From Nymphaea colorata (Eukaryota; Streptophyta; Magnoliopsida; Nymphaeales; Nymphaeaceae), in assembly GCF_008831285.2 (NCBI RefSeq), contig NC_045142.1, positions 25,619,876 through 25,683,875 of the forward strand: a stretch of DNA of 64,000 nt, read 5' to 3'. Below are positions 1-63,684 of this stretch, piece by piece. Under the pieces are notes generated by a model that saw nothing but the letters and a program-made list of their open reading frames with translations, had not been told where the DNA came from and made no database searches. Every line of letters starts with the position of its first letter. Positions within the stretch are counted from its first letter, which is position 1. The translations under genes were made by a program, and so were the position numbers.

Positions 1-2589
1 CACAATTCTTTTTTACCGCGTAATTTGAATCCAACTCCTGGTTTGGATTTCTAATTAACAAACATCTGATCAGTCAAGTGTAAATGGGTTCCATTAATCG
101 GCAGTATTCTAGTCGAATATCACATCAAGTGCCATGCTATTGGATGATCAGGAAATGGGAAAATACTCGAAATTAGGGTTCCTTTTACATGCCAATCTAT
201 ACAGAACTTGCATTGATCTATACAGAGTCCGGTCAAATTCCCAATGGATTCTGGCAGTGTTGGCAGGGATGTACATTTGCGCAACACTAACTCCTCAAGT
301 TCGCTCAGGTTTCCAACGAGATCGGGCAATGCCTTTAGAGATGTACAGTTGGATAGGTGCAAGCTCTTAAGTCCTATCAAGTTTTCGATGGGATCAGGCA
401 ACATTGACAGAGATCGACATTTGGTAAGTATTACCTCCTGAAGTGCCGTCAACCTACCCAAGGAATTGGGAAGAGCTGATAGACATCCACATACGTAGAC
501 GTGTAACTTCTTGAGTCCTGTCAAATTCCCAATGGAATGGGGCAATGTTGATAGGGATGTGCATGAGCCTATTTGTAACTCCTCGAGTAAAGACAACCTT
601 TCGATTGAATAGGGCAATGTCGATAAAGATTCACAAACAAGCACATCTAACCTCCTCAGTCCTGTCAAATTCCCAAAGGAATCAGGCAATGCCAATAGAG
701 ATTTACAACCAGCAGGATTTAACATCCTCAGCCTAGTCAAATTTTCAATGGAATCAGGCAATGCCGATAGAGATTCACAACCGCACACATTTAAATCCTT
801 CAGTCTAGTCAAATTTTCAATGGAATCAGGCAGTGTTGACAAGGATGTACATTCGAACAATACTAACTCCTCAAGTTCGGTCAGGTTTCCAATAGAATCA
901 GGCAATGCCAATAGAGATTCACAATTTTCCAGCTTCAACCTCTTAAGCCATGTCAATTTTCCCATGGAATTAGGAGGAGCCGATAGGCATTCACAATGGG
1001 ACGTGTCTAAACTTCTAAGTCTCGTCAAATTCTCTACGAAATGAGGCAATGTTGAGAATGATAACTATGATAGTGATAACTCCTCAAGTCTAGTGAAGTT
1101 TTCGATGGAATTGGGTAATGCCAACAGAGATGTACAATGAGACACGTCTAGCATCCTCAGTTCGGTCAAATTCTCAATGGAATTTGGCAATCTTGACGGG
1201 GATGAACACCAGCACAATCCTAAATGCTCAAGTTTGCTCAACCTTCCAATGGAACTGGGCAAGCTGTGTAGATGATAACAACTTGCCAAGTCTTTCATCT
1301 TCAGTTTGGTTGAATGTCCAATGGACTCAGGAATGTCCGTTAAACTGCTGCAGCCTCCAAGGCATAGTTTCTCTAGGTTCAAGGAGCGAGAGAAATCAGG
1401 AAGCTTCGTAAGTGCACTGCATCCACGAAGGTCCTGCACCTTCAGGTTAGTGAACACCTGTCCATCAATGGAAGCACCATTCTTTTTTTTTTTTTTTTTT
1501 TTGGGTAAGAAAGAAATTCTCCATCAATGAAGCAAGCAACAGAAATATGGTCCCACACATGAGTATAAATTGAAACTAACCTTTTTCTTTGATATGCAAC
1601 AGAAGTGACTCTGTGCTGTTCAATTCATGGACTTGGTACTTTTTAGCCACATGACGATGCGCATCCAGAAGCTGCACATCCCTTGTGGTGATGAGAATCC
1701 TTGTTCCTTCACCAAACCAGCCACAGCCACCAGCTAATGCTTTGAGTTGATCCCCATGGTCAACATCATCAAGAACAGCAAGCACCCTCTTGCCAAGAAA
1801 TCTCCTTTTTATCTCCGCAGACCCCTCATTGGGGTTGCGTATTTTTTTGCTTCCATCTTTGAACACCTCAGAAATAAATTCGTCCTGCAATTTGCGCAGC
1901 CCATCTTTTCTGTCCTTGACACCATCTATGATTATAGGCTTATAGCTTTTTCAAACCTGTCCTGGAGTCTGTTATGTATTTCCTTTGCGAGTGTTGTCTT
2001 GCCCACGCCTCCCATCCCATAAATCCCAACCATTTTAATGCCTCCTTCCTCAATACTTAGCAATTCCATTACTTCTTCAACCCTGTAGTGGATTCCCACA
2101 AGATGCTCTCCCACAGGCAACATTACATTATCACTGTGCTCACCTACCCTTTCCACAATTTCTTGTATCAGTTCTACCTCTTTCTAATTTGATCTGCCAA
2201 CATTTAAAAACAAAACGAGAAGGCGGGGAGTGAATGTCATGTTATATATGCGGTTACTTTTTTTGTTCTTCCGAATTCAGAAAATAAATGAATAATATAA
2301 AAAAGAAATGTAAGTTTTTTAAAGCTAACAACAAATTTTTCTAGTTTTGGTAGCTTTTCCATCTCAGCTGCCTATTTCTACAGAATTGCGGGTTTGATTT
2401 TTTATGTATTCAAGCAACTACTTACAGCAAAATTTGAACTGTTAATTAGAAAATATCATCCCATTGACATCTCTAGTTTTGTTTTGGGCTCAACTATCTA
2501 GCTTGCTAGTAGTGCAATTTGAGACTTGATTTGATCACTTTTACTTGGATTTGGGTTTAAATCAAAGTCACACAAAAAAATTCCGTTTT

Positions 2590-2885
2590 AATTTTTTTCG
2601 AGTATAATACGGTGAGCTCAAAAAAAAAAAGGTAAATTGCTAAAAAATAAAAAAATATATAAAATGCAAAAAAATAAATTAATAAGAAACTAATATCACA
2701 AACATTAAAAAATAAGTAGATTTGGAGCAAATAAAAATTATAAAAATGAAAAAGAACAGTTTGACATTAAAAAATGTGAAAATGAATAAAATGAAAAAAG
2801 AGGAAAAAGAAAAAAGTGAAAAAAGGAAAAAATAATAAAAATGGAAAATCATATTTTTCGCACTTTTTTTATTTTTAACGTTTTT
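2590..2885. repeat. A/T-rich dispersed element, copy A
   Basis: Strongly strand-asymmetric DNA, with runs of A on the plus strand. It begins next to the motif GTATAATACGGT. The same motif flanks the A/T-rich block at 42140-42520 in the opposite orientation, so both probably belong to one transposon-derived family. No coding sequence or terminal repeat is resolved. Confidence 0.4.
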
Positions 2886-2894
2886 TTTTCCTCC

Positions 2895-2935
<41 letters not shown>

Positions 2936-2944
2936 GTGTACATA

Positions 2945-3019
2945 GAGTAGTGATGAACAACAAAACTTTTAGTGGCATTTTCATTATGTTAGATCTAATA
3001 CCCGAGAGTTTAATTTAAA
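2945..3019 (+). repeat. Direct repeat, unit 1 of 2
   Basis: About 75 bp beginning GAGTAGTGATGAACAACAAA and ending in the CCCGAGAGTTT segment. It recurs at 4488-4562 with a few differences, inside the same intron. Confidence 0.75.
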
Positions 3020-3940
3020 CTTTGTACTATCATTAATGGAAAGAAGAATCAATGGAAAGAAGAATCAATCTGATTACCACTCTAAATTGTTCAAAGTACT
3101 GATCACTATCATTAATGGAATGAAGAATCAATCAGAATTATACTGTGGGCCTTTTGATGCCTTTCATAGCTTCCCTAGTTTTGCCACAACCTTGCGAAAG
3201 GGGGAACCCTGTTTATGGTGTGCTTGATGACATTGATGACATTCCCCCGCCAGTCCCAATTCCTCTTTCATCGTCCATGTTTCCTTTTCTTTAGATTCCT
3301 CTGTCTGTATTCTCCGATCTCTTGACATTTGCAATTGGTTGAGAAAATAGTATCTACTACTTAGGACTTTCCAGGTGGCTAAGAAGGAGTAGAATAGTGA
3401 TAGCAGAGGCATAGATGCTTTATGAAAGAAGGGAATGGATGGTCATTGGAATTTTCATTGAAAGGTTGTTGATACTAAAAGTCACTTAACTTATTCAAGT
3501 CAAAGTCAGACAAATCTTTCAAAGTGCTTACCAAATTTGATGGTCATTACAATTGTCTTATTATGGGTTTCCTACGCTTCCCCCTAGGCAAATAGTGACA
3601 ACGATGAATGAGAGAAGTAAAAAGAAGAAGAAAAAGGGGAAATGGAGGATATAGACGGAGAGTAAGATCTTCATATCCCAGACTGCCAGCATCAACACTA
3701 AAGCGTTTTCCAACAATTACATTTAAAATGTTGTGTTATTTGTTGGCTGCAATGGAGAGGATTTGTTGCCGATCGGTGGAATGTAATTGCACAAAATTTG
3801 TGTCATTCCATAAAAACTTTAATTTGTTGTGATTTTTCTTTTGAATTTTGATTAGTGAATATGCCATTTCATTAGCTATAATTTCAGAAATTGTAACTCT
3901 TGGAATTCTCAAAGAATTTGATGTTTCACCAGCATTTCAG

Positions 3941-4051
3941 GAGAGAGAAAGAGAGAGAGAGCCGATAACATGGGAATGTATATCAAAATTAGGGGACAAG
4001 AAGTCCCCAAGATACAAAAATTGAGGACAAGAAGTCCCCTAGTTACAGTAA
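3941..4051 (+). repeat. Dispersed repeat shared by both TNL introns, copy 1
   Basis: Starts with GA-rich DNA, then GAGCCGATAA, GGAATGTATATCAAA and two GGGACAAG-AGTCCCC modules. A close relative lies at 8553-8667 in intron 1 of the second TNL. Because the two genes point opposite ways, this copy is antisense to its host gene and the other is sense. Confidence 0.7.
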
Positions 4052-4487
4052 TTAACTGCAAGACAAAAGCAATAGATGAATACAACTTACAGAAAAACAA
4101 AATAGGAGGGGTGGAAAGAGAGTGGAAGGACAGAACAACATCATCTCCCAGTCGCAGAAAGAGGACAACGCCGCAACTGAATGGCAAAATGAACATCTCC
4201 CTGCACAAGACGAGCCACAGACTCCGGCGAAGAGAAGGTGCCCCGAAGACCCTGTTGTTGCGCTCCTTTCAAATATGCCATCAAGCTGAAATGAGCCACA
4301 ACCTCCAAACACGGCCCCAAGAAATAGACAAGTTGGGGGAATGACAAAAAAGAAAAAAAAGACAAATAGCAAAATGAACATCTCCTTGCACAAGACGAAT
4401 GGAGAGAAAGAGAAAAAGAGTGAAGGAAAAGGAAAAGGTAAAAAGTTATAGCATAATTCATACACCAATCAAAAGATTCATGATATT

Positions 4488-4562
4488 GAGTAGTGATGAA
4501 CAACAAAAATTTTAGTGGCAATCTGATTTTATGAGATCTATTACCCGAGAGTTTGATTTGAA
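4488..4562 (+). repeat. Direct repeat, unit 2 of 2
   Basis: Second copy of the 75-bp unit at 2945-3019, same orientation, 1.5 kb away. The pair suggests a segmental duplication or two related insertions in the intron. Confidence 0.75.
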
Positions 4563-5229
4563 GTTATACCCAACTTAAAATATTCCATGGTTCTAGGCAA
4601 CTGGGGAATTTAAGAATTGTGCATGTAAAATCTCTGTTACACTACAAACATGTAGGTCCAAATGCAAAGTTTGCCTTTTACTTCCTGTTTTTTTTGAAAA
4701 GGCAAAGTGGGGAAGGGAGAGAGAAACTTACTGGTGACTAATAGTGAAGCCTTTAAGTTGACCAACTTTAGTCATTGCAGTTCTCCATTCGTCAACATCT
4801 GCAGAACTCGAACTCACTTGATGGTTTTTGAATGCCATCTCAAAAGGGTCCCTTTGATGGAGCACATCAGACGGCTCGACATGGTAAAAGATGGGGATGA
4901 TCTCCTTCTTGTGCTCAAACATGGTGGCCAGTTCCATCAAACACGACTTAGAATCTGCATATCCTTTTGACAAGATGACCACACAGTACCTCGACTCTTT
5001 TATTACTTCGAGAAGCCTTTTGTCAATTTTCTCTCCGGACTTCATTTTTTCATCGTTCATCATCAATGAATGTATGGATTCCTGCATCATCGAGAGCCTT
5101 GGAGAGGTGCCCTATGAAGCTTTGTTGGGTGTCTTTTCCCCTCAAACTCAAAAATACTTCGTATGTGAAAGAGCCAACAGAAGAGATGGAGGAGGATGGA
5201 ACCAATGCTGAATTAGAAGAAGCGGCCAT

Positions 5230-7257
5230 GGCTAAACTCTTCCACTCTTCCTAAGGTTGTATCGATTTTAAAAAAGATGTTTCAGCTGGGAGAAGAAGGA
5301 AGATCAAACCTAGATAAGTGGGACGCTGAAAATTGCAGAGGAAATTTCAGTGGAAAGGGGGAGAAGGATGAAGGACCTTGTCATGATCACCTACTCTCCC
5401 TCGGTTTCAATATTAATAATGGATGGCGTGAATAAAAAACCAAGAAACCCACAGTTTTTCTCTACCGGTTTTTGTCAAATGAACCAAGGTAGATCTCAAA
5501 CTCAACTTCTGATGGCTAAAATTCTCAAATTGGATATTCTTCCGCGTGTAAACTGTTGAGATTTTTTTCTTTTTTACCAAAAACCTATACAAAATTTCTA
5601 GCTTTTTAGCTATCAGTTGAACAAATCCTGTACAACTTTTATGAGGACAGTGTATGAAACAGAGACAATATTCATCAGAATAAGCTTTGCTTCAAGTAAC
5701 GCAAAAAATTTTCTACTTTCAAATCGACCGAAAAGCCTCTCGTTGGAAAAGTGTGTCAGCTGCTTCAAACCTTTGCGAATTAATCATCCCATCAAACGTT
5801 CCTTTTAGCTGTACGGAAGAACAATGTTAAGAGCTACGTGAATAACAAACTTAATAAGTGCGATTTCCAATCAACTGGTGGAGCCAAAATTTAATTTTAG
5901 TCAGAAGGAGCACTAATTTAATAACTTTAATGTTTTTAAGGGCACTTTTGTATGTAAATAATCAAATATATCGGATTATTAAGATAACGATAAATAAACT
6001 GTTTCGAACAACATCGGATCTTGACAACATAAATTTGGTATCATTTCCATTTTTCATTTAAAATTTATTTAATGTTAATTTTTGTTTAAAGGAATCAGAA
6101 GTAGGATGATAAGTGATAACCGATATGGTGTTGATGAATTTACAACGTCGGTCGGTCGGTGGCCATCATGGATGGAGCATACCCATCAAGATCCAGATTC
6201 AGATCCAAATATCAGTTTAAAAAGAAATTGCGATGTCACGCACGGCCGTTTCTTAACGCCCAATTAATCCACTGCCCAAAAATATTTGCCTAAAAATATT
6301 TAATACGGAACCGAGCTGAAGAAATCACCAGAACTGCCGTCATCTAAAGGCAATATTGAATTTGGTGTTTGATAAAGATTGAAATTTCATACAAAAGGGA
6401 CATCCAGTTATCTGTTTTAAATTACATAAGCAATATTCAATATTGAGTCATTTGAAGGTTGGTGCAATGGCAGGGTGGGTGCTGGTAGGTGGTCAATTCT
6501 TCTTTTCGAAACATCAATATGTCGACTTCTTTGTCATGTAGAAGTTGAAGCACAATGGGGTAGCATCCTAAGACACTGAAAGCAACCATCTACTTAAGGA
6601 GAAGAAAGAGTTTGGTAAAAGTTCCGGCTCTCTTTTGAGTGGTAAGGAAAAATTTGCTCACTCATTATATCCAATATTGGCTCCCATTATATCCAATATT
6701 GAGTTCTGACTGAGAAATTTGATCCTTTCTAATCAAGGAAAAGAATTCATGCATGGGATGATTGCATATCAAAGAATTAAAAATCAGCTCATATTAAGCG
6801 AGGGCAGGATACTTGGACCAAAAACTAATTGGGTCCTTGAGTACTTCTCAAGTAGGCTGTAAAAGCCTATCATTTTTAATTATATGCAATTGAATATGGT
6901 TGTAGAGATGCATATATTCATATATATAAACAGATATACTCAATATAATAGTTGGCCTTGTTAAACCTACCATTAAGGCATAATCAAGCAGTTATAGGTA
7001 AATTAAATGTATTAAAGAGGAGGTTACAACTTTGTCATGAAAAGGGAGTTGACAAAATACATTGATGGGTGCATTCAAAAAAATGATTTAGATAAAACTG
7101 AAGAGTCATCTTTCTTGTGAGAGGTGCAAATTGGGATGGCAGCTTTTGGGGCTTTAAAGAGGTCTATTTAACCTTGTTTTGCAGCAAATAAACCTGTGCT
7201 GCAATACAGAATGGAAGGTCAAGCAAAGAGACTCTAGATAGCCAAAATTATCATTCA

Positions 7258-7314
<57 letters not shown>

Positions 7315-7899
7315 GAGTCATTTAATCGATTCTGGTGAACAGTTGAGAGAAAGACATGGATATGAAAGTGATTTAGTTTCTCCATGTCTTGAGAAAAAGG
7401 TGATTTAGTTTACATAATTTTTTCATTGTTTTTGTCTTAAATGTTCATCATAATAGAACGGATGGTTTTAATGAGTGAGTTGGGTAACATATGTATCGGT
7501 CGGCAACCGATAACAGGTTCCTTATGGTGGGCATCATTTTTAAGATGGGCGTAGGGCCGGTGGATAAGGTTTCGATTGGTGCCACCGATAAGCGCATCTC
7601 ACCAACACCTGACTGTAAATAGTTTGTGACGCGATACTGGACAACGTTCCATTGTGACGTTCCATCATAATTGAAGGATTCAGACTAAGGGATGAAGAAA
7701 TCTGTGGGTGCTACTTGTTATCGCTGCCAAAACGTTGGGCGTGGCTTGCCGAAGTTTTATTGGAAATCATCTTTTATGCACCATATATACATGGTGAACT
7801 GGTGATTGATGTATTCATGATCATGTGGTTCCTCCTCCTCTGATGTCAGTCTCGGATCCAATTCCTTCTCCCGCAAAAACAATCTGGGTGCGATCGGCC
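5230..7899. other. Intergenic region between divergent TNL loci
   Basis: 2.67 kb separate the two start codons, and promoters for both would lie here. The sequence is A/T-rich and holds a long (TA)n tract at 7260-7311 and a doubled CATTATATCCAATATTG near 6660-6700. A possible TATA-like ATATATA lies near 7785, about 110 bp before the plus-strand start. No gene was recognised. Confidence 0.6.
7260..7311. repeat. (TA)n microsatellite
   Basis: About 52 bp of uninterrupted TA dinucleotides, read directly. Confidence 0.97.
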
Positions 7900-10536
7900 A
7901 TGGGCGCTTCTTCGAGTTCAACGTCGTTCGTTCCCTCCTCTTCCTTGGCGTCCTCTTCCAGGGAATACGAAGCGTTTCTGAGTTTCAGGGAAGAAGATAT
8001 CGGCCAAGGCTTCGGGGGCCACCTCTACACAGCTCTCAGGGATGCAGGAATCCGCACTTTCAAGGACGATGGAGAGATGGTGGCGGGAGTGAACAACGAG
8101 AAGCTCCTGAAAGCAGCACAGGAGTCAAGGTGCTGCGTGGTCGTCATATCCAGTCGATATGCGAATTCAGATCGGTGTTTGAACGGACTGGCAGCCATGT
8201 TTCGGGCTAATACGGAGATCATCCCCGTCTTCTACAATGTCGACTCTTACGACGTGCGCAATCAGAGTGGCCCTTTCGAGTTTGCTTTCACCAAACATAA
8301 ACAGAATCACACCTATGAAGCTGTTGAGGAATGGATGCATGCGATGGCCACAGTTGGTAAACTTAAAGGTTTCCATGTTAATCACCAGTACGTCTCTCTC
8401 TCTTTCTTTCCCTCAAGATCTCTCCTTCTCTCCCACTGTTGATGTTTTTTGTTTCTTCACTTGCTTGTCTCATGGTTTCTGTTTCTTTACTTGCTTATAT
8501 GATTATATCTTGTACTGATATTGATATCTCTCTCTTCCTTCGTCTTTTCCAGTAACCAGAAAAGAAAGAGAGATAAAGAGCCGATAAAATGGAAATGTAT
8601 ATCAAATTTTGAAGACAAAGTCCCCTACATACAAAAATTAGGGACAAGAGGTCCCCTAAATACAGTAGAGAGAGAAAAAAAAAATTATGGTTCATCGAAC
8701 CAAAGATTTTAGTATGATAAAAGTGAGAATTTATGGTTCATCGAACCAAAGATTTTAGTATGATAAAGTTTATGGATCAAACTAAGGACCTTAGTTTGAT
8801 TGTGGGCCTTCTGATCTGAATCAAACTGGTGAATATCTCATATCCTGATCAGCATCTCAGATTAAGAAAAAGGCATTCGATTTGTTTGAGATTGGTGTTC
8901 TTAGAATTTTTATATCCTTTATTTCTTGCAGCATATGAAATCTTTTGTTTGAAATGTGAAAGAACTACACGATAAATTTGTAAACTTCTTGAAATTCATG
9001 AATCTCAAGTGATCAAAGTACGCTCCTCCGCGCGGCTTCTAGCTTGACATGTGGACTTGAGATTTATGAATCTCAAGGTACACACATATTTTGGCTCCTG
9101 TTTAGCTTGAAGCTTTAATTTGTCTTGAGCTTCTGCAATTCTTAACTTCAAACTTTGCTAGAATCGTGGATTAATAATCAAGATTTGTCCCTTATTAAAT
9201 CTGACAGTAAGATCATAGATCGGAGATAAGTTGTCTATTAATACTCGCTGATCTATTGTATATATATTTCATAGATGTAAATATACGATGAAGTTCGTCC
9301 GCAAATAACGAAATTCTTTAGAATTCTAAAGTCGAATCCATCAGTCAAATTTAGCATTTACGAAGTGATCATTTAATTAGTATCAAGCCTATCTATCCTA
9401 ATATGTATATGTCAGATTCCAATTCCATTGGAAAAGATGGGTTACCTTGGATCTGAAGATTGAACCCTAAATCCATGTAGACGTCTTAAATCAAAAATTT
9501 TAACGGCTACGTTAAAAGACCCGTGAGAAAAACAAAGAGAAAATAATCATCATCCTTTTCTCCTTGTTTTTTTCTCAACTTTTCATCAGATGGATCTATG
9601 TTTGGTGTCCTCTATTCATTAATTTTAAATTATAGTATGTGTATTTGCCAAAACTCGTTATCAACTTTAAATACCTATATTTACTATGTATATTTTAGTT
9701 ATTTCATAATTTTGAAAGAGGAGAAAGCTTAATTGATATATATTATAAGGTCCGTCCTATTATTCTTTTTGTTTGGCAGGTTGAGTAGGGAGAGACAAGT
9801 GATACAAGACATCGTGGAAAGAGTGAGCGGGTGCAGAGATAATCAGTTGCGTTTTGTAGATCGTCCTGAAAGAAATTTCGACTCCCCTGTCCGAGACGTC
9901 TCAGAACTTCTAAGTCTTGAGGAAGGAGGCGTTAAAATGATCGGAATTTATGGGATGGGAGCGGTGGGGAAGACAACAGTCGCAAGTGAGCTACTCGGCG
10001 GACTCTCCGGTAGGTTTGATGAAGTTATCATCATAAGGGGGATCAAAGACAAAGCCAGAAACGATGGGCTGCACAAATTACAACGAGAGTTCATTTCTCC
10101 AGCATTAGAAGATAACGAGGAAGAAACATATAGCTCCCGTGCGGGGATCAACGAGATCGAAAGGCGATTTCGTCACAAGAGGATACTTGCTATTCTTGAT
10201 GATGTTGACGACAGAGAGCAGTTGAGAGCATTAGCCGGTGGACGCGACTGGTTTGGTGAAGGAACGAGAATCGTGATCACCGCAAGGGATGTGCAGATTC
10301 TGGAAGCGCATCGCGTAGATAGAAAGTATGATGCCCAGGGATTGAGATGGATCAACGAATCCTCATCACCGCATCATGGCCGGTACCACTATCAAGGAAC
10401 AGATCATCATTTTCAACGTCAAAGGAACTATCCCCAACAAGAACGAGAAGAAGAAGAAGGTTTCAACACTTTTCATGCATCCCTTCGTCCCGGACAAGAT
10501 CAAGAAGAAGCTCGGATGCGCTTCAAGAGGTATTAA
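7900..10536 (+). CDS. Truncated TIR-NB protein (two exons)
   Basis: Exons 7900-8387 and 9780-10536; the join CA|G keeps frame and gives 414 residues. Start 7900 (MGASSSS) was chosen over the in-frame 7825 because it aligns with the start of the sister TNL. TIR domain is about residues 24-160. Its helix reads YANSDRCLNGL, so residue 96 is Gly where TIR NADases have the catalytic Glu (GGA instead of GAA at 8185-8187). The NB part has P-loop GMGAVGKTT (221-229), kinase 2 LAILDDVDD (299-307) and RNBS-B GTRIVITARD. After residue 351 homology stops. A 63-residue unrelated tail follows and the TAA at 10534-10536 abuts a MITE-like element. ARC2 and LRRs are absent. It may be an expressed TIR-NB remnant, a decoy or helper, or a pseudogene. 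Confidence 0.72.
8553..8667 (+). repeat. Dispersed repeat shared by both TNL introns, copy 2
   Basis: Relative of 3941-4051: GA-rich start, GAGCCGATAA, GGAAATGTATATCAAA, then two modules ending AGTCCCC and GGTCCCC, and TACAGTA at the end. It is sense with respect to its host gene. Confidence 0.7.
8685..8767 (+). repeat. 46-bp tandem duplication
   Basis: Two adjacent units, each with TTATGGTTCATCGAACCAAA followed by GATTTTAGTATGATAAA. The shared parts are identical by eye. Confidence 0.85.
8988..9077. repeat. Pair of 22-bp near-perfect palindromes
   Basis: CTTGAAATTCATGAATCTCA plus AG at 8988-9009 and a near-identical unit at 9056-9077. Each is almost self-complementary, so the pair is both direct and inverted. 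Confidence 0.7.
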
Positions 10537-15412: not shown

Positions 15413-20409
<4,997 letters not shown>

Positions 20410-56085: not shown

Positions 56086-57053
56086 AAGTAATAAAATATG
56101 TGGCTCAGGTTCAAGGTCGTGGCAGAGTTGAGCCGTCCTTGGTTGTCACGTTGGCAATCATGGTTTTATTCGTATGAGCAGATAAGGAAGTGTGGACCAA
56201 GGACACTAGATTTTAGTCCTTCTCCCATGAGTTTTTCAGGTCTGGACTCTAAATTTCCTTCATAGTTCATTTGATTCCACATCCTCGTGTCCAAAAACCA
56301 AGCTGAATCAGCCAACTGGAAACTGAACCGGTGACAAATCAGCTTGATTTGTCGTCCAACAAGTTCATTTTTAATTATTTTAAAATATATTTGTCATCTA
56401 TTGTTCATTTTTAATTATTTTACAATTTTTTTTGTTTTCCATTAATTTTTTAAAGTGAATTTACTAATATTTTTTTCTATCGATTCAAGCTCCACCGCCG
56501 AGTCAGCCCATTTACTGAATCTAATCCTTGGTCAACTCAACTTTTGATTGTCACACAATGGTACGTCTAAAAACTCTATCAAATTTGACAAGCGTGCAGT
56601 CTTTTCATTGTCATCGTTGTCGGTGTGAGCTTAGTTCTGGTCCTCAGGTTGTTGGGTCCATCAGTCAGATTCAGGCTATGGACATGTACGACTCAGAAAC
56701 AGCATGCTTACTGAACCAACTTGTGCTAAAGTCTTCCAAGCTGCTTAGTGCGTTTCTCTAAAGCAGTCTAATCTAGCTGCCATTATGGAAACGTAGGAAA
56801 ACAAAAGACTTCATAAGAAGAAAGCCAATTCATCTTTTTCGCAATACATTATTACAGCAGCTACCAAAATTGAACTATGATGAAGGTGAATTTGTACATG
56901 TCTTGAGGCAACACACTGCATACACAGAGACACGAGGGCGCTCGTAATGCACCAAAAGATCCATGTGGAAGAGGCCAGAAAACCAAGTTCTCCAACTAAT
57001 CTATCCACGTACAAGAAAGTCTCTGCTCCCCCTTCATTTTTCATCTCTTGTCT

Positions 57054-59352
57054 TTACACTTCGGTATGGTCTTCCTTGGAGAAGTCGGTATCAGCTTTTG
57101 ACGTATCATCCCTGTTTTCACAAGCATCTGTCCCTACTAAAAGCTTAGCCTTGAGGGCCTCTTCCTCCCAATTGGTATTCCAGATCACAGTGAAAGCCAT
57201 GAGAGCAGCAGCGATTTGTGCTCCAAGGAGACCATAGCAGAGGCCCAAGAACCCAAACTGGAAGGTGAAGGCCATAATTAAGGCAATGGGAGAACCTACA
57301 AGGTAGAAGGAAATTAGATTGATCCTAGCACCAGTGTTGGGTCTGGCACTGCCTCTAAGCACGCCACATCCTGTAGTTTGTGGACAATTGCCCAATTCAC
57401 ATAAGCCAATTACAGGCAGAACTTGCATGGTAAGCTTCAAAATCTCTTCATCTGTACTGAAAGCTTGTCCCCACAGCCTTCTTCCTACTATGGTCCAAAC
57501 CAGACCTACCAGTGATATCCCGAAGGCCAGCACCATGGCCACAAGTGCAGCCAGGTGTGCCTGACTTGGCTTTCTAGATCCTAGCTCGGTGCCAACTCGA
57601 GTTGAGACCGATGCACTGAGTGCTACCGGAAATGCATACAGCAAAGATGTTGTTTGTATGACTATGGCTGCAACTGCGACTGTTACATGTGGGTCAGGAA
57701 GGTAGCCAGCTGAAAGTGTCATGAACTCATACCACCACCACTCCAAGCAAACACCTACACAACTTGGCAGTGCAAGACGCAGCAATGTTATCCAATGACC
57801 ATTGTTGTCACCTTTAGAGATGAGGTCCTGCCATGACATTTTCAGATGATCAGTTTTAATGAATGTATGAAGCGACCAAAGAAACCAAAGACGAATGCAG
57901 GGCATCATCAAAATGATCTTTTATAGTTGTAACTTGTTACTAACTGGAGTTTTTTTGTTTTCCTCAGTAGCTTTTACCACATAAAGGATTGAAATATGAT
58001 ATTCATGGAACTAACGGATAAATTTGTGGACCTGAAAGGTCATAAGTGAATTGAGGACTTTATTAGAAATTTAGCAGCACTGCTTGATCAAAATATTAGA
58101 ATATGCATAGTGATATATTTTAAATAAGATGTGCCTGTTCCTGTCCTCTTATTCTGTTTGTCCTCACAAGCTCTGAATGTCTACTGGACTACAAATTACG
58201 CTGGAGCAATAAAAAAAAGAAGTGACAAGTAACGACATTGGTGTGAAAGCTTGTGATTGAGACAGCCTGGGCAAAACTGAGCATGTCTACCAGAAAAAAT
58301 ACAATTATCTGGAAAAATGGAATTGCAAAATCCTGCATGTTCTGACAGAAGTTCAACACAGATTCTTCTTCCTGACACAGATCCAAAGTGATCGGTTCCT
58401 TTTTTGTACTAGATTCTTCATCGAGAATATTTTATCCTATCAACTCTTAATTTAAAGGTGTTCTATCAAATTGGTCCTGCATCTATTTTCGAAGAGTCAG
58501 AATTTTGGCATTAAGCAGTACCTGTTTGCATCCAGTTGGTGGACAGGAGCCAGTGTAGAGCATGTACATGAGAAGAAAAATGAGTGTGTTCAAGTTGGTG
58601 CAACAGGATGCAATGGCGATCCCAGGGATGCCTAGTTTGAGTACAAAAGCAAGCAAGAAGGTCAGGGGAACGTGAAAAATGACAGCAATGGTGGTGCTCC
58701 ACATAAGAGGAGCAGTATTTCCTCTGCATCTAAGATATATACGAAGCGGATGGAGAAAGCTGTTGATGATAAGATCAGGTAGGGCAAAGACAGAATAAAG
58801 GCTAGCCATCTTTGTGATAGAAGGATCTTGCCTAAAATAGACCAAGACGGGTTGCAGGTTAAGCCATAAAAGTGATACAGGCAATGAAGTAAAGAGTAGC
58901 AGGAGAATTGTGCGTCGAAGACTGAGATGAACAAGATTAAGATTTTGAGAACCAAAGGCTTGGCTGCAAATGGGTTCCATGCCCAAGGCTAAGCCACTGA
59001 GAAGTGAGTAGCCAGTGATGTTTGTAAACCCAATGGCAAGTGCACCACCAGCTAGCTCAAGGCTGCCAAGTTTGCCCATGCACAGGACAGAGGTCATGGA
59101 TCTCAGATATGTTATGAGATGCATGGTGGTGAGGGGGATAAAGATCTCCTTTAGTTGCTTTGCCTCCTCCACGATCTGCATGAAGTTTAGAACAGATTAG
59201 AGCAGACGTTGTCAGTTATACAAAGAACAGAAGAAACATTAAGATGATGCATAACTCCTGATCTTTTGAGTTGAAATAGCAAGGAGGGGATTTCTTCATA
59301 CCTGTTTCATTGATGGTTGCTTTGGACTATGGGGATTATCAGTAGGTGCCAT
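57054..59352 (-). CDS. MATE / DTX (DETOXIFICATION) family transporter
   Basis: Exons (minus) 59352-59302, 59175-58522 and 57827-57054 give about 492 residues, usual for plant DTX proteins. These are H+ or Na+ coupled multidrug and metabolite antiporters with 12 membrane helices. Blocks seen: EIFIPLTTMHLITYLRS, GLALGMEPICSQAFGSQN, LRCRGNTAPL, PSCVGVCLEWWWYEFM, ASVSTRVGTELGSRKP, CPQTTGCGVLRGSARP and ISFYLVGSPIAL. The EPICSQAFGSQN and LEWWWYE motifs place it in the DTX48-56-like clade; the substrate is unknown. Exon 1 has 17 codons (MAPTDNPHSPKQ). The exon 3 acceptor was set at TGGCAG|GAC. An alternative AAAAG|ATC near 57918 would add 30 hydrophobic residues and fits the family less well. The promoter abuts a long inverted repeat. 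Confidence 0.93.
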
Positions 59353-59424
59353 AATTGTGTCCCAAAGTTGTGTGTGTATGAGAGCGAGAGAGAGGTGTTG
59401 AACTCATAAATGCGAGTAAGGGGA

Positions 59425-59489: not shown

Positions 59490-60277
59490 TCAAGGAGATG
59501 AGGTTAAATCATTTTGTCAGTTAAAGGAACCCAGTGAATCTGCAGTACTCTCTGTTGTAGCTTTGGTCCCGGCAGGTTGAGAGAAACCGATGTCATTTCA
59601 CTTTAATTAAAAAGGTAGAGAGTTACGGGATTGGGACGTTTGGATGACCACCACGTCATAAACTATCCGATTTTATTTTCTCTGTGGACTCCGAGGTGTC
59701 CCGTACCATAATTCACAAGAGAAGGAGAGAGCAAAAAAAAAGTTTCTACTTATATTACTTTCGAATCTGAACTCCATGTGCTTCTGCTATTTCATGCTTG
59801 TAAACCCCTTAAATTTACGAACTTTCCATATCGTTTATCTGCAAAGAACATATCATATATGACAGTGTAATCATATACTCACATGACAAGTTACATGTAT
59901 GATTACACTGTCATATATGATATGTTCTTTGCAGATAAACGATATAGAAAGTTCGTAAATTTAAGGGGTTTACGAGCATGAAATAGCAGAAGCACATGGA
60001 GTTCAGATTAATATAAGTAGAAACTTTTTTTTTGCTCTCTCCCTCTCTTGTGAATTATGGTACGGGACACCTCGGAGTCCACAGAGAAAATAAAATCGGA
60101 AAGTTTTTGACGTGGTGGTCATCCAAACGTCCCAATCCCGAAACACTCTACCTTTTTAATTAAAGTGAAACGACATCGGTTTCTCTCAACCTGCCGGGAC
60201 CAAAGCTACAACAGAGAGTACTGCAGATTCACTGGGTTCCTTTTAACTGACAAAATGATTTAACCTCATCTCCTTGA
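59490..60277. repeat. Long inverted repeat IR1 (arms ~385 bp, 22-bp spacer)
   Basis: The left arm 59490-59875 and the complement of the right arm 59898-60277 match over their full length, with about a dozen substitutions and a few small indels by eye. Outer ends pair TCAAGGAGATGAGG; inner ends pair GACAGTGTAATCATA. The spacer is 59876-59897. The left arm begins 58 bp upstream of the MATE TATA box, so it overlaps that promoter. A transcript would form a very long hairpin. No coding content was recognised. Confidence 0.93.
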
Positions 60278-60280
60278 TTT

Positions 60281-60412
60281 GCATATGAACAATACAGAAA
60301 GTTCATAAGCTTAAGGGGTTTACAAGCATGAAATAGCAAAAGCACATGGAGTTCAAATTCTAGAAGTAATGTAAGTAGAACTCTCTCTCTCTTGTGGGTC
60401 ATGCTACGGGAC
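60281..60412 (+). repeat. Partial third copy of the IR1 arm
   Basis: AAGGGGTTTACAAGCATGAA, AAGCACATGGAGTTCA and GTAAGTAGAA repeat the inner half of the right arm (about 59925-60066) in direct orientation, but with more divergence than the two arms show to each other. Confidence 0.85.
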
Positions 60413-60858
60413 GCGCAGTGCAATAATTTACACTTGGTTTCACTTCTCCTGGCATCAGATATCCTTTTATCTTAGAACATCCATTTCCGCTGGTTTGGCC
60501 CTGAACTGCTGTGCAGTGGTTGCATCGTTGTCCGTAGACTTTTACCATGTTCATGAAAAGAACATATCCAAGGTCTCCCCATCACCTTTTTTCGCCTTCA
60601 CTCTCCACTGAGTTACTCCAAATGGATGAGATTCCTGGTTGGGCTTTTGATGCATAAAGCTAGTTTCCTTCTAAGCAGCAATTGACTGTGACAGTCCATG
60701 TATGCTACTCTTCTGCGGTCATCTTTGGTTATGCAGTCCTCATCTTGAGCACCACAGGAATCATCAGTGAAGGTAAAGCACATGGGCATCGCTTGGGTTG
60801 GCATATGCAACTTTTTATAAAAAATGGGGACTACCCTCATCTGATTTCAGAGCAAGTA

Positions 60859-60898
60859 TGACTGGAATAAAATAGAACAGGAAATTTAGGCCTTGACA
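60859..60898 (+). repeat. Partial third copy of the IR2 arm
   Basis: GACTGGAATAAAATAGAACA followed by GGAAATTTAGGCCTTGAC resembles the IR2 left-arm segment starting at about 60958. It is a short, diverged direct copy just outside the hairpin. Confidence 0.6.
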
Positions 60899-60914
60899 CA
60901 AGGGAGCCATTCAT

Positions 60915-61416
60915 CTATCAAACCGCACTTTACACCAGCCAAAAAAGACTGGAATGAAATAGAAAGAACAGGTGGAAGTTTACCCCTTGAACCTTAGCTA
61001 TCAAAATTCAGAAGGGATTTCACATGTTCTAGTCATGAGGTGTTTCTATCTCAAGATGAAAATGGAAATCCTACTCCCACCAAGACCACGGCCATGCTTT
61101 TTCACGGCTCAATGGGCGCACTCTTTCAGTCTTTCAAGCTGAAAGGTGAATGTGATGTCAGTGGAGGATTTTTCTTCCAAAATGTCTTCCACTTTTCAGT
61201 TTACTTCAGGCAAGGGATACTTTGATAGCTGTGAAAAGGCATGGTTGTGGTCTTGGTGGGAGTACGATTTCCAGTTTCACCTTGAGATAGCAACATCATG
61301 ACTAGAACATGTGAAATCCCTTCTGTATTTTGATAGCTAAGGTTCAAGGCGTAAACTTCCTGTTCTTTCTATTTCATTCCAGTCCTTTTTGGTTGGTGTA
61401 AAGCGCGGTTTGATAG
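60915..61416. repeat. Long inverted repeat IR2 (arms ~190 bp, ~117-bp loop)
   Basis: The left arm 60915-61109 matches the complement of the right arm 61227-61416 with roughly 17 substitutions and a 3-bp indel by eye, near 90% identity. Matching blocks include CTATCAAACCG, GACTGGAATGAAATAGAAAG, CAGAAGGGATTTCACATGTT and CTCCCACCAAGACCAC. The loop is 61110-61226. The size and loop resemble a young MIRNA or hairpin-siRNA precursor. No conserved miRNA sequence was recognised. Confidence 0.92.
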
Positions 61417-63684
61417 AAACCATATTCATCGGACGTGGAGATCAAAAGCGCCTAATTTTTCTATTTTTGTTCTTTCTGATGGAAGCTGATGAAAAGTGCG
61501 CCTTTTGAAGAGCTTTATACGTCAACCTGATCTCCAGAATTCTCCCTCCCTTTCTCTCTCTCTCTCTCTCTCACATATACCAAGTGTAGGCATTACCTGT
61601 TCATGTTATATAAGTGCGCAACAGTGGATGGTACCAACTTCCTGTTTTGCTTTCTAGAATCATCTGTGAGTTTCTAACCAGCGATTTTTAGCTGCTACAC
61701 ATGCGCCGTGCTCAACAAAGATGGGGCAACTTGCTTTTAGGTTCGCACGACATGTCTGCCTTTACAAATAACGAGAGGTGGTACGTTGCGCATCAATGTC
61801 AAGTCAAATCTTAGACCCTGCCTCCCCAGCACATTCTGTCAGCAGGATCCTTTTACTGCAGTGATAAAATGAAATAAGATCTGATCACGTGTATACAGAG
61901 GGCTCTACAACTCAAGAGCCAACTTAAGCTAGGCTCGAAGTCGAATTGTTTGAAAACTCAAGCTTGCAAACACCATGAACTTGACTCGATTAAACTTGAG
62001 TAAGCTTGTTTAATTTAGGCTACAGACAAACATTATATGTAAATACACGATGACAATATAAAATGACAATGCCCAGATTTATAAAAGTAGAAAGAAGCCT
62101 GTTTCAGGAAACAAGCTGCTCTCTGGTCGTGCCCATCTCATGCGGTTCGAGTTTGAAGTTTGAACTAAGGTGCTTACTGAAGCATCTATTACCAGACTCT
62201 TCTAACTTTGATGGATGGCCATGGCCAAGAACAGTTGGGCTGCAGCCTCAAGTTTCATCCAGCAATCAGTGTGACCTACCAAAACTGTTTCACTAATGCT
62301 CATAATGGAGAGCGGTACCATTCTAAAAAAGTGGACCACGTATCTCTTTGAGAAAGTGATCTGACACATTATTGTACGTGGAACTGCATAGCATATATTG
62401 CTCAAACCAAATCAAGCTGAAGTTACCAACATCAGGTCTATATCAGTGTTTCTACTATGGTACTGTATCCAATATGATTTAGGGTTTGATAGTTTCAAAA
62501 ATACTGTGTGTTTTGCTTCTTAATTAGTCTAAATTGCTTATTATTGCTTTTAAATAAACTCGAGAAGTAGATTCTTCTTGGCTGGGACATCATACCAGCT
62601 GTCAGCAAATCGACGTGGTGCCAATACCGATATTGACAACACTGGTCCATGCAGCAGACGGCATTATGCCGCGAAATCTACATGATGTGAACACTGATTG
62701 GATGCCACGGACCACCGTACTATAGGCGCCACGTTGAGTATTCAAAGACTGCAGACATGTCTGCACGGTGGCCATAGTTGATCTGGCAACTTCACTTCAC
62801 TGCCCACCCCTTGGTCTGGACCATGGAGGGGAACCTACCAATGCTTATACAGCTGGTAAATGAAAGAGCAGTGGGCAGTTACATGTTCCTCTAGATGGGT
62901 CATGTGATACCTTGGCTGAGCTAAGTTAGAGTAGAACCCAAGCAGAAACAGCTCTCAGGATGGTTAGCATGTGTGTGTGAGAGAAAAGTTATATTTTGTA
63001 AATAAAAATATGCTACATGCTTTATTGCTGAAAACTTGCATGATATAAGAATGTAACCGCATTAAAACAAACTGTCACGACAAAAAAAAATAAGATTCAC
63101 ATGTAAAATAATTCAATTCAACCATTCTCCTTTGAAACACTAAATATGTCCATGTGATTGCTTAAAGCAGTCAACTATATCTAAAAAAAGTTGATTTTCT
63201 TGGTAGAAAAGAGATGAGGTTATGAAGTAATTCAAGGGAAACGTTGATCTGAATCCTTATGGAACCAGTGGCAGAACTCATTAGGATGCACTTTTCTGGC
63301 CCAAGAAAATATCTTTTTCTTCCCCAAAAAACCAACCACCATCTGGATCATGCACAGTTTTTTCTCAGACATGAACTAATCAATCTCCTCAATAATGTGG
63401 TGGACTCTGTCCTTCATATGTCCCACTCAAGAGGATTTGACTGCTTGATTTGATGAGTATAGGTATGCAGGTTATGGAGGTGTGCAATACAACCTAGACA
63501 GAGCTTCACATAAATAGTGAGTTTGGGTTGACTGCAGTAAATGAGTGACAGAGGGAGGGGGACCTAATGATTATCATATAAATCTTTTTCATTAATTTCA
63601 TTTTCCATCAATAGATTTGTTTTACAAATAAGCAATACAGATATATAATTATTCGATTCCTCCTCCCAATATCTCTATTCCAAC

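Follow-up and report, generated by a model that had tools for sequence, protein, structure and literature searches.

Inverted repeats with long arms can be read as incipient microRNA (MIRNA) genes, as transposons, as regulatory elements or as plain duplications of local DNA, and one such repeat (IR2) in Nymphaea colorata raises the question of which of these it is. The window analysed, the whole stretch of 64,000 nucleotides, corresponds to C5:25619876-25683875 of the 407.8-Mb genome. Its gene content, namely TIR/NB-ARC/LRR coding stretches, an NPH3-family gene, a MATE transporter gene and a homologue of FANCI, marked it as plant DNA. IR2 appears to be an ordinary local inverted duplication that is decaying.

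A strong predicted hairpin upstream of a MATE transporter gene

The features that define the locus are as follows.

57054-59196, minus strand: MATE-family transporter gene, with two coding stretches (58483-59196 and 57054-57920)
59490-60277, no strand: IR1, a neighbouring inverted repeat unrelated to IR2
60914-61109, plus strand: left arm of IR2 (196 bp)
61110-61226, no strand: loop of IR2 (117 bp), dissimilar to the arms
61227-61417, minus strand: right arm of IR2 (191 bp), reverse complement of the left arm

The first-pass annotation had described 190-bp arms of about 90 % identity around a 117-bp loop, and this anatomy is borne out. Global alignment of the arms gave identity at 177 of 190 aligned sites (93.2 %), with 90.8 % obtained by BLAST, which counts gaps. 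The divergence of 6.8 % (13 of 190 sites) comprises eight transitions and five transversions, accompanied by two indels of 3 and 2 bp. Folding of positions 60900-61430, which had been suggested as a check, produced a strong hairpin on the plus strand (-337.4 kcal/mol, z -31) and on the minus strand (-326.4 kcal/mol, z -30), and none of 100 shuffled sequences folded as well in either case. Five of the eight arm transitions leave a G-U pair on the plus strand, so that no clear bias towards plus-strand pairing was seen among them. A Pfam search (E up to 1) with one 75-aa reading frame that crosses an arm and the loop gave no match. An assembly artefact is disfavoured by the divergence of the arms and by a second copy of the repeat in which mismatches are shared.

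The start of the MATE gene is likely to lie near position 59181, as inferred from the sequence, which places IR2 approximately 1.7 kb upstream of the gene and within the 3-kb distance used for gene-proximal inverted repeats. Elsewhere in the window, TIR, NB-ARC and LRR coding stretches are clustered at 120-10536 on both strands (minus up to 5.1 kb, plus at 7.8-10.5 kb). Inverted pairs of at least 60 bp were listed across the window at a threshold of E below 1e-6, and of these no long pair other than IR1 and IR2 has its arms close together. What remains consists of simple repeats and of pairs whose arms are more than 2.5 kb apart; two pairs within the resistance-gene cluster have arms separated by 2.7 and 7.6 kb, and the remaining non-simple pairs by at least 12-14 kb.

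Copies of the repeat and its likely origin

With a 531-bp query spanning IR2, a genome search listed two places: the window itself and, 38 kb downstream, C5:25718728-25719258, which is 96 % identical across the entire query, flanks included. When the query was reduced to the left arm (E up to 10), four matches were listed, and these were the arms of the two copies only. As the flanks are common to both, the second place is a segmental duplicate and not a second insertion. The search skipped very common words and scored best candidates only, and it passed over a 44-bp copy of the arm in the flank of IR2 and, for IR1, a third diverged region; 'two copies' hence means two readily recognisable copies, since short diverged pieces that are seen locally are omitted by such a search.

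Pieces of the window between 28.4 and 64 kb recur at C5:25700152-25720655 in mostly conserved order and with 81-97 % identity by BLAST. The longest pieces have identities of 95.6, 95.0, 97.3 and 93.2 %, while the piece that runs from the differing part of IR1 through IR2 is 87.2 % identical. No counterpart of window positions 40.1-55.3 kb was found in this interval by BLAST, and the piece at 62322-62560 is inverted relative to the window. The duplication (window 28429-64000) takes in the FANCI-like and MATE coding stretches. In the duplicate, the MATE gene (C5:25716391-25717969) is without the equivalent of window 56771-58047, which carries the second coding stretch, and is therefore probably a pseudogene. 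The duplicate of IR2 is complete, with no indels relative to the window. Further fragments lie downstream: the resistance-gene cluster (window 5-12 kb) recurs in part at C5:25725474-25730804, and a third fragment of the first MATE coding stretch, inverted, is found at C5:25730803-25731125.

The region also has a third copy, at C5:25730803-25734099, which is more diverged and is without the following block.

60427-61609, no strand: block holding IR2, missing from the third copy, with a 4-bp ATAA junction overlap common to both sides

This third copy is not a clean empty site of IR2, since the missing block starts approximately 490 bp to the left of the repeat and ends approximately 190 bp to its right. 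With that qualification, the absence of IR2 there would be in keeping with insertion upstream of the MATE gene of a MITE or other terminal-inverted-repeat element, such as a long-armed Mutator-like one, of which only relics are left. The size and anatomy of IR2 suit a long-armed element, and MITEs have a similar size range and inverted ends. A diverged or degraded family could also escape a genome search that skips common words and scores the best candidates. However, the two copies listed share their flanks and do not represent independent insertions, while the rule for MITEs stated in the cited part of PMC12550479 calls for at least three copies with distinct 50-bp flanks; within the sensitivity of the search, IR2 has two copies with shared flanks. 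Dispersal through the genome as a MITE, which the first-pass annotation had named as the observation that would tell against its reading, gains no support from the full-length and arm searches, both of which list only IR2 and its segmental duplicate.

The ends of the repeat were also considered. No target-site duplication abuts the arms of IR2 at their boundaries, as would be found in MITEs. The best direct repeat at the edges is ATTCATC (7 bp), found at the edge of the left arm and just beyond the right arm. This repeat counts in favour of a transposon but does not abut the right arm: a 6-bp shift of the right boundary is needed, and 8 of 400 random boundary pairs gave repeats of at least 7 bp. 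A freer local-alignment test of the IR2 flanks found nothing, with 2208 of 5000 random pairs scoring as well. Two flanking segments with similarity to the arms were detected.

60853-60896, plus strand: third arm copy, partial and diverged, within the left flank, in direct orientation to the left arm
61451-61511, minus strand: weak match in the right flank, possibly another copy of the outer arm

The left-flank segment is closest to the right arm: its score against that arm was reached by none of 1000 shuffles and none of 1000 window segments, and the score against the left arm by three shuffles and two window segments out of 1000 each. Like the right arm, this segment does not have the 3-bp insertion, and it has G where the left arm of the window has C. 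The match in the right flank is weaker, with scores reached by five shuffles and one window segment out of 1000 each against the left arm, and by 20 and 18, respectively, against the right arm.

A partial copy of an arm in the flank is unexpected for a transposon, and we regard insertion of such an element as unlikely. Local copying, by contrast, suits IR2 because the partial copy in the left flank is in direct orientation and, judged on the sequence, would need the fewest assumptions to account for the flank copies and for the absence of an abutting target-site duplication. We therefore favour, with somewhat better than even confidence, the reading that IR2 is a drifting local inverted duplication of non-transposon origin upstream of the MATE gene. 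The proposed event is a single-lineage duplication of local intergenic DNA in which a segment of arm length would have been copied in reverse beside itself, as the anatomy indicates, possibly by template switching during replication or repair.

Probable drift of the arms and the question of function

The segmental duplicate allows the history of the arms to be followed. An alignment of the four arms from the window and the duplicate has 24 variable columns. Left and right arms are separated in both duplicates at nine substitution positions and two gap positions. Another nine columns are unique to a single arm (window left, four; duplicate left, two; window right, none; duplicate right, three), and the remaining four are of other kinds. 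Differences between the duplicates over 60413-61540 amount to 34 in 1118 sites (3.0 %). The left/right differences common to both copies, together with an arm divergence that exceeds the divergence between duplicates (6.8 % against 3.0 %), indicate that the inversion came first. On the evidence of the shared mismatches, IR2 was already in place when the segmental duplication carried the block 38 kb downstream.

Both copies have gained substitutions since then at about the rate of their flanks. Changes between duplicates numbered 13 in 387 sites of the arms, 5 in 117 of the loop and 16 in 614 of the flanks. Substitution rates were much alike at arm and non-arm sites (13/387 versus 21/731; Fisher P=0.71), in a test that rests on the 13 arm changes. 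In no column had both partners of a pair changed between the duplicates. Any change confined to one arm necessarily weakens a previously intact pair, so that a count of weakened pairs carries no evidential weight of its own. At four columns the window has a mismatch where the duplicate has a pair. On parsimony, these are later changes in the left arm of the window, with repair in the duplicate as the alternative; the flank copy agrees with the window-left-arm change at its one informative column.

Indels gave a different picture from substitutions. None separates the duplicates within the 504 bp of IR2, compared with five in 784 bp of near flank, one of which sits in a microsatellite, and six in the next 567 bp. 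The chance of zero indels in IR2 is 0.08 from the near flank alone and 0.03 from both flank sets. This absence may be due to constraint or to chance, and counts weakly against pure drift. Transitions were in excess at CpG when IR1 and IR2 were pooled (5 of 36 versus 7 of 194 sites, P=0.025), which is a weak hint of past methylation; the excess is not significant for IR2 taken singly (P=0.089), and P=0.12 for IR1. For the 24-nt siRNAs and CHH methylation expected of gene-proximal plant inverted repeats, this excess is an indirect sign.

The first-pass annotation had proposed a young MIRNA gene born by inverted duplication of a target gene. The inverted duplication is supported by the present results, whereas no parental gene was listed in the genome at E up to 10 and a MIRNA identity does not find support. 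Long arms, scattered mismatches and a strong fold speak for this reading, in which a transcribed hairpin is cut precisely by DCL1 to yield one miRNA that silences the source gene of the arms. It is in line with the hypothesis, described in the cited part of PMC12825306 (a study from 2026), that MIRNA loci begin as inverted duplications processed by siRNA Dicers, and the absence of indels between the IR2 duplicates also counts in its favour. IR2 shares an inverted duplication with a loop with the MIRNA genes of the Allen model, as described in the cited part of PMC3237417. It differs from these in having no parental gene among the matches found, no conserved miRNA/miRNA* island and a hairpin that is too long. 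At 504 nt (60914-61417), the hairpin exceeds the 300 nt that miRScore allows for plant MIRNA precursors, although a longer precursor leads to a warning and not to failure in the cited part of PMC12594335; the read rule in the same source asks for at least 10 reads of miRNA/miRNA*, making up at least 75 % of hairpin reads.

Conservation within the arms does not single out a miRNA/miRNA* segment over the rest. The longest run invariant across the four arms was 26 columns (permutation mean 27.6, P=0.55) and the longest perfect run between the arms of the window was 30 (permutation mean 38), so that no conserved 21-nt segment was seen in either the four-arm or the two-arm run test. Arm substitutions match those of the loop and flanks. 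The first-pass annotation had recognised no known miRNA in the repeat; in agreement with this, nothing anywhere in the window reached the gathering score of an Rfam family. A permissive Rfam search of 60800-61550 yielded five weak matches, of which the plant one was MIR396. This match, in the IR2 stem near the loop, reached 16.8 of the 80 bits required (E 2.2), covers only the outer stem of the model and was judged to be due to chance.

No gene elsewhere with extended similarity to the arms, and hence no parental or target sequence, was listed in the plant's own genome with the left arm as query and E up to 10, a search that distant matches may escape. Separately, a profile of the IR2 arms had a weak match (9.6 bits, E 0.02) to positions 19169-19228, within the NPH3-family coding stretch, which scored higher than any of 39 Markov controls (at most 7.3) and higher than the reversed window (7.0). 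As a parent of IR2 this stretch is unproven; it differs at 5 of 24 core bases and was unlisted in the genome search with the arm. Taken together with the length of the hairpin and the lack of a conserved segment, a MIRNA reading of IR2 is unlikely, and we give its full form, with precise DCL1 cutting and silencing of a source gene, very little credence indeed.

The position of IR2 approximately 1.7 kb upstream of the MATE gene also brings up a selected cis-regulatory role, in which 24-nt siRNAs would methylate the upstream region and alter chromatin folding. A MITE upstream of the sunflower gene HaWRKY6 reportedly provides a precedent for such methylation by 24-nt siRNAs with altered chromatin folding. 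The lack of indels between the IR2 copies is compatible with selection of this kind, but substitutions in the arms are no rarer than elsewhere, and the duplicate retains IR2 despite a MATE copy that is without its second coding stretch. Counts from Arabidopsis lend the reading some plausibility: according to the cited part of PMC12595863, there are 885 inverted repeats, of which 634 are situated no more than 3 kb from a gene, and approximately 486 of the 634 make 24-nt siRNAs. Given this prior, production of siRNAs from IR2 in some tissue is plausible. The Arabidopsis gene-proximal repeats (Arce et al. 2023, as cited in that part of PMC12595863) resemble IR2 in lying within 3 kb and forming near-perfect dsRNA; approximately 68 % of that set is likely to be derived from transposable elements, particularly MuDR-type MITEs, whereas the genome searches listed no dispersed copies of IR2. 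A selected regulatory role for IR2 is, in our assessment, quite improbable, and most likely the repeat is without a selected function.

If transcribed, IR2 would, by analogy, feed siRNA-type Dicers and local methylation rather than a MIRNA pathway. A near-perfect fold-back duplex is a substrate for siRNA-generating Dicers, as exemplified by Arabidopsis IR71 in the cited part of PMC12825306. IR71 has the same type of intramolecular fold-back as IR2 and is processed by DCL2/3/4 with help from DCL1, but it forms approximately 3 kb of dsRNA with known siRNAs, as compared with a predicted duplex of approximately 190 bp in IR2. From the behaviour of plant inverted repeats, transcription through IR2 would be expected to give a near-perfect 190-bp duplex and DCL2/3/4 siRNAs, which could methylate the repeat and possibly its surroundings.

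An unrelated inverted repeat alongside

IR2 is mildly interesting because of the unrelated inverted repeat IR1 alongside. The first-pass annotation had placed IR2 about 640 bp from IR1 and had called it unrelated and older, and the measurements agree on each point. The two are 636 bp apart, and similarity between them was not significant, with the scores of three arm comparisons reached by 115, 449 and 410 of 1000 shuffles. Divergence between arms (K2P) is 0.072 for IR2 versus 0.021 for IR1, in which 8 of 379 sites differ; the apparent youth of IR1 could, however, stem from gene conversion between its arms. Arm divergence in IR1 is not above the divergence between the duplicates, and arm-to-arm gene conversion may have taken place.

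Matches to IR1 were listed only in the window and in the region of the C5 segmental duplicate (genome search, E up to 0.01). The duplicate IR1, at C5:25717725-25718220, is missing its centre (window 59625-60121). Its mirror extends outward to the equivalent of window position 59380, into the DNA immediately before the MATE gene, where it terminates with a CT microsatellite, while the window IR1 has instead a diverged tandem copy at 60278-60412. As the mirror of the duplicate enters DNA upstream of the MATE gene and ends in this microsatellite, IR1 looks like locally copied DNA.

A tentative suggestion, which we hold to be possible but doubtful, is that the region upstream of the MATE gene acts as a hotspot, giving rise repeatedly to transposon-free inverted duplications of its own DNA. 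This suggestion draws on the occurrence within 636 bp of two unrelated inverted repeats, each with a diverged partial copy in its flank, and on the longer mirror of the duplicate IR1 with its CT-microsatellite end.

IR2 would form a hairpin, yet it is not recognisable as a dispersed transposon and shows no slowing of substitution, for which its segmental duplicate provides an internal yardstick. Such repeats are thought to be raw material for siRNA loci and MIRNA genes, and the pair formed by IR1 and IR2 may help in asking how local inverted duplications form. If a hotspot does exist upstream of the MATE gene, it would be a natural nursery of hairpin loci.
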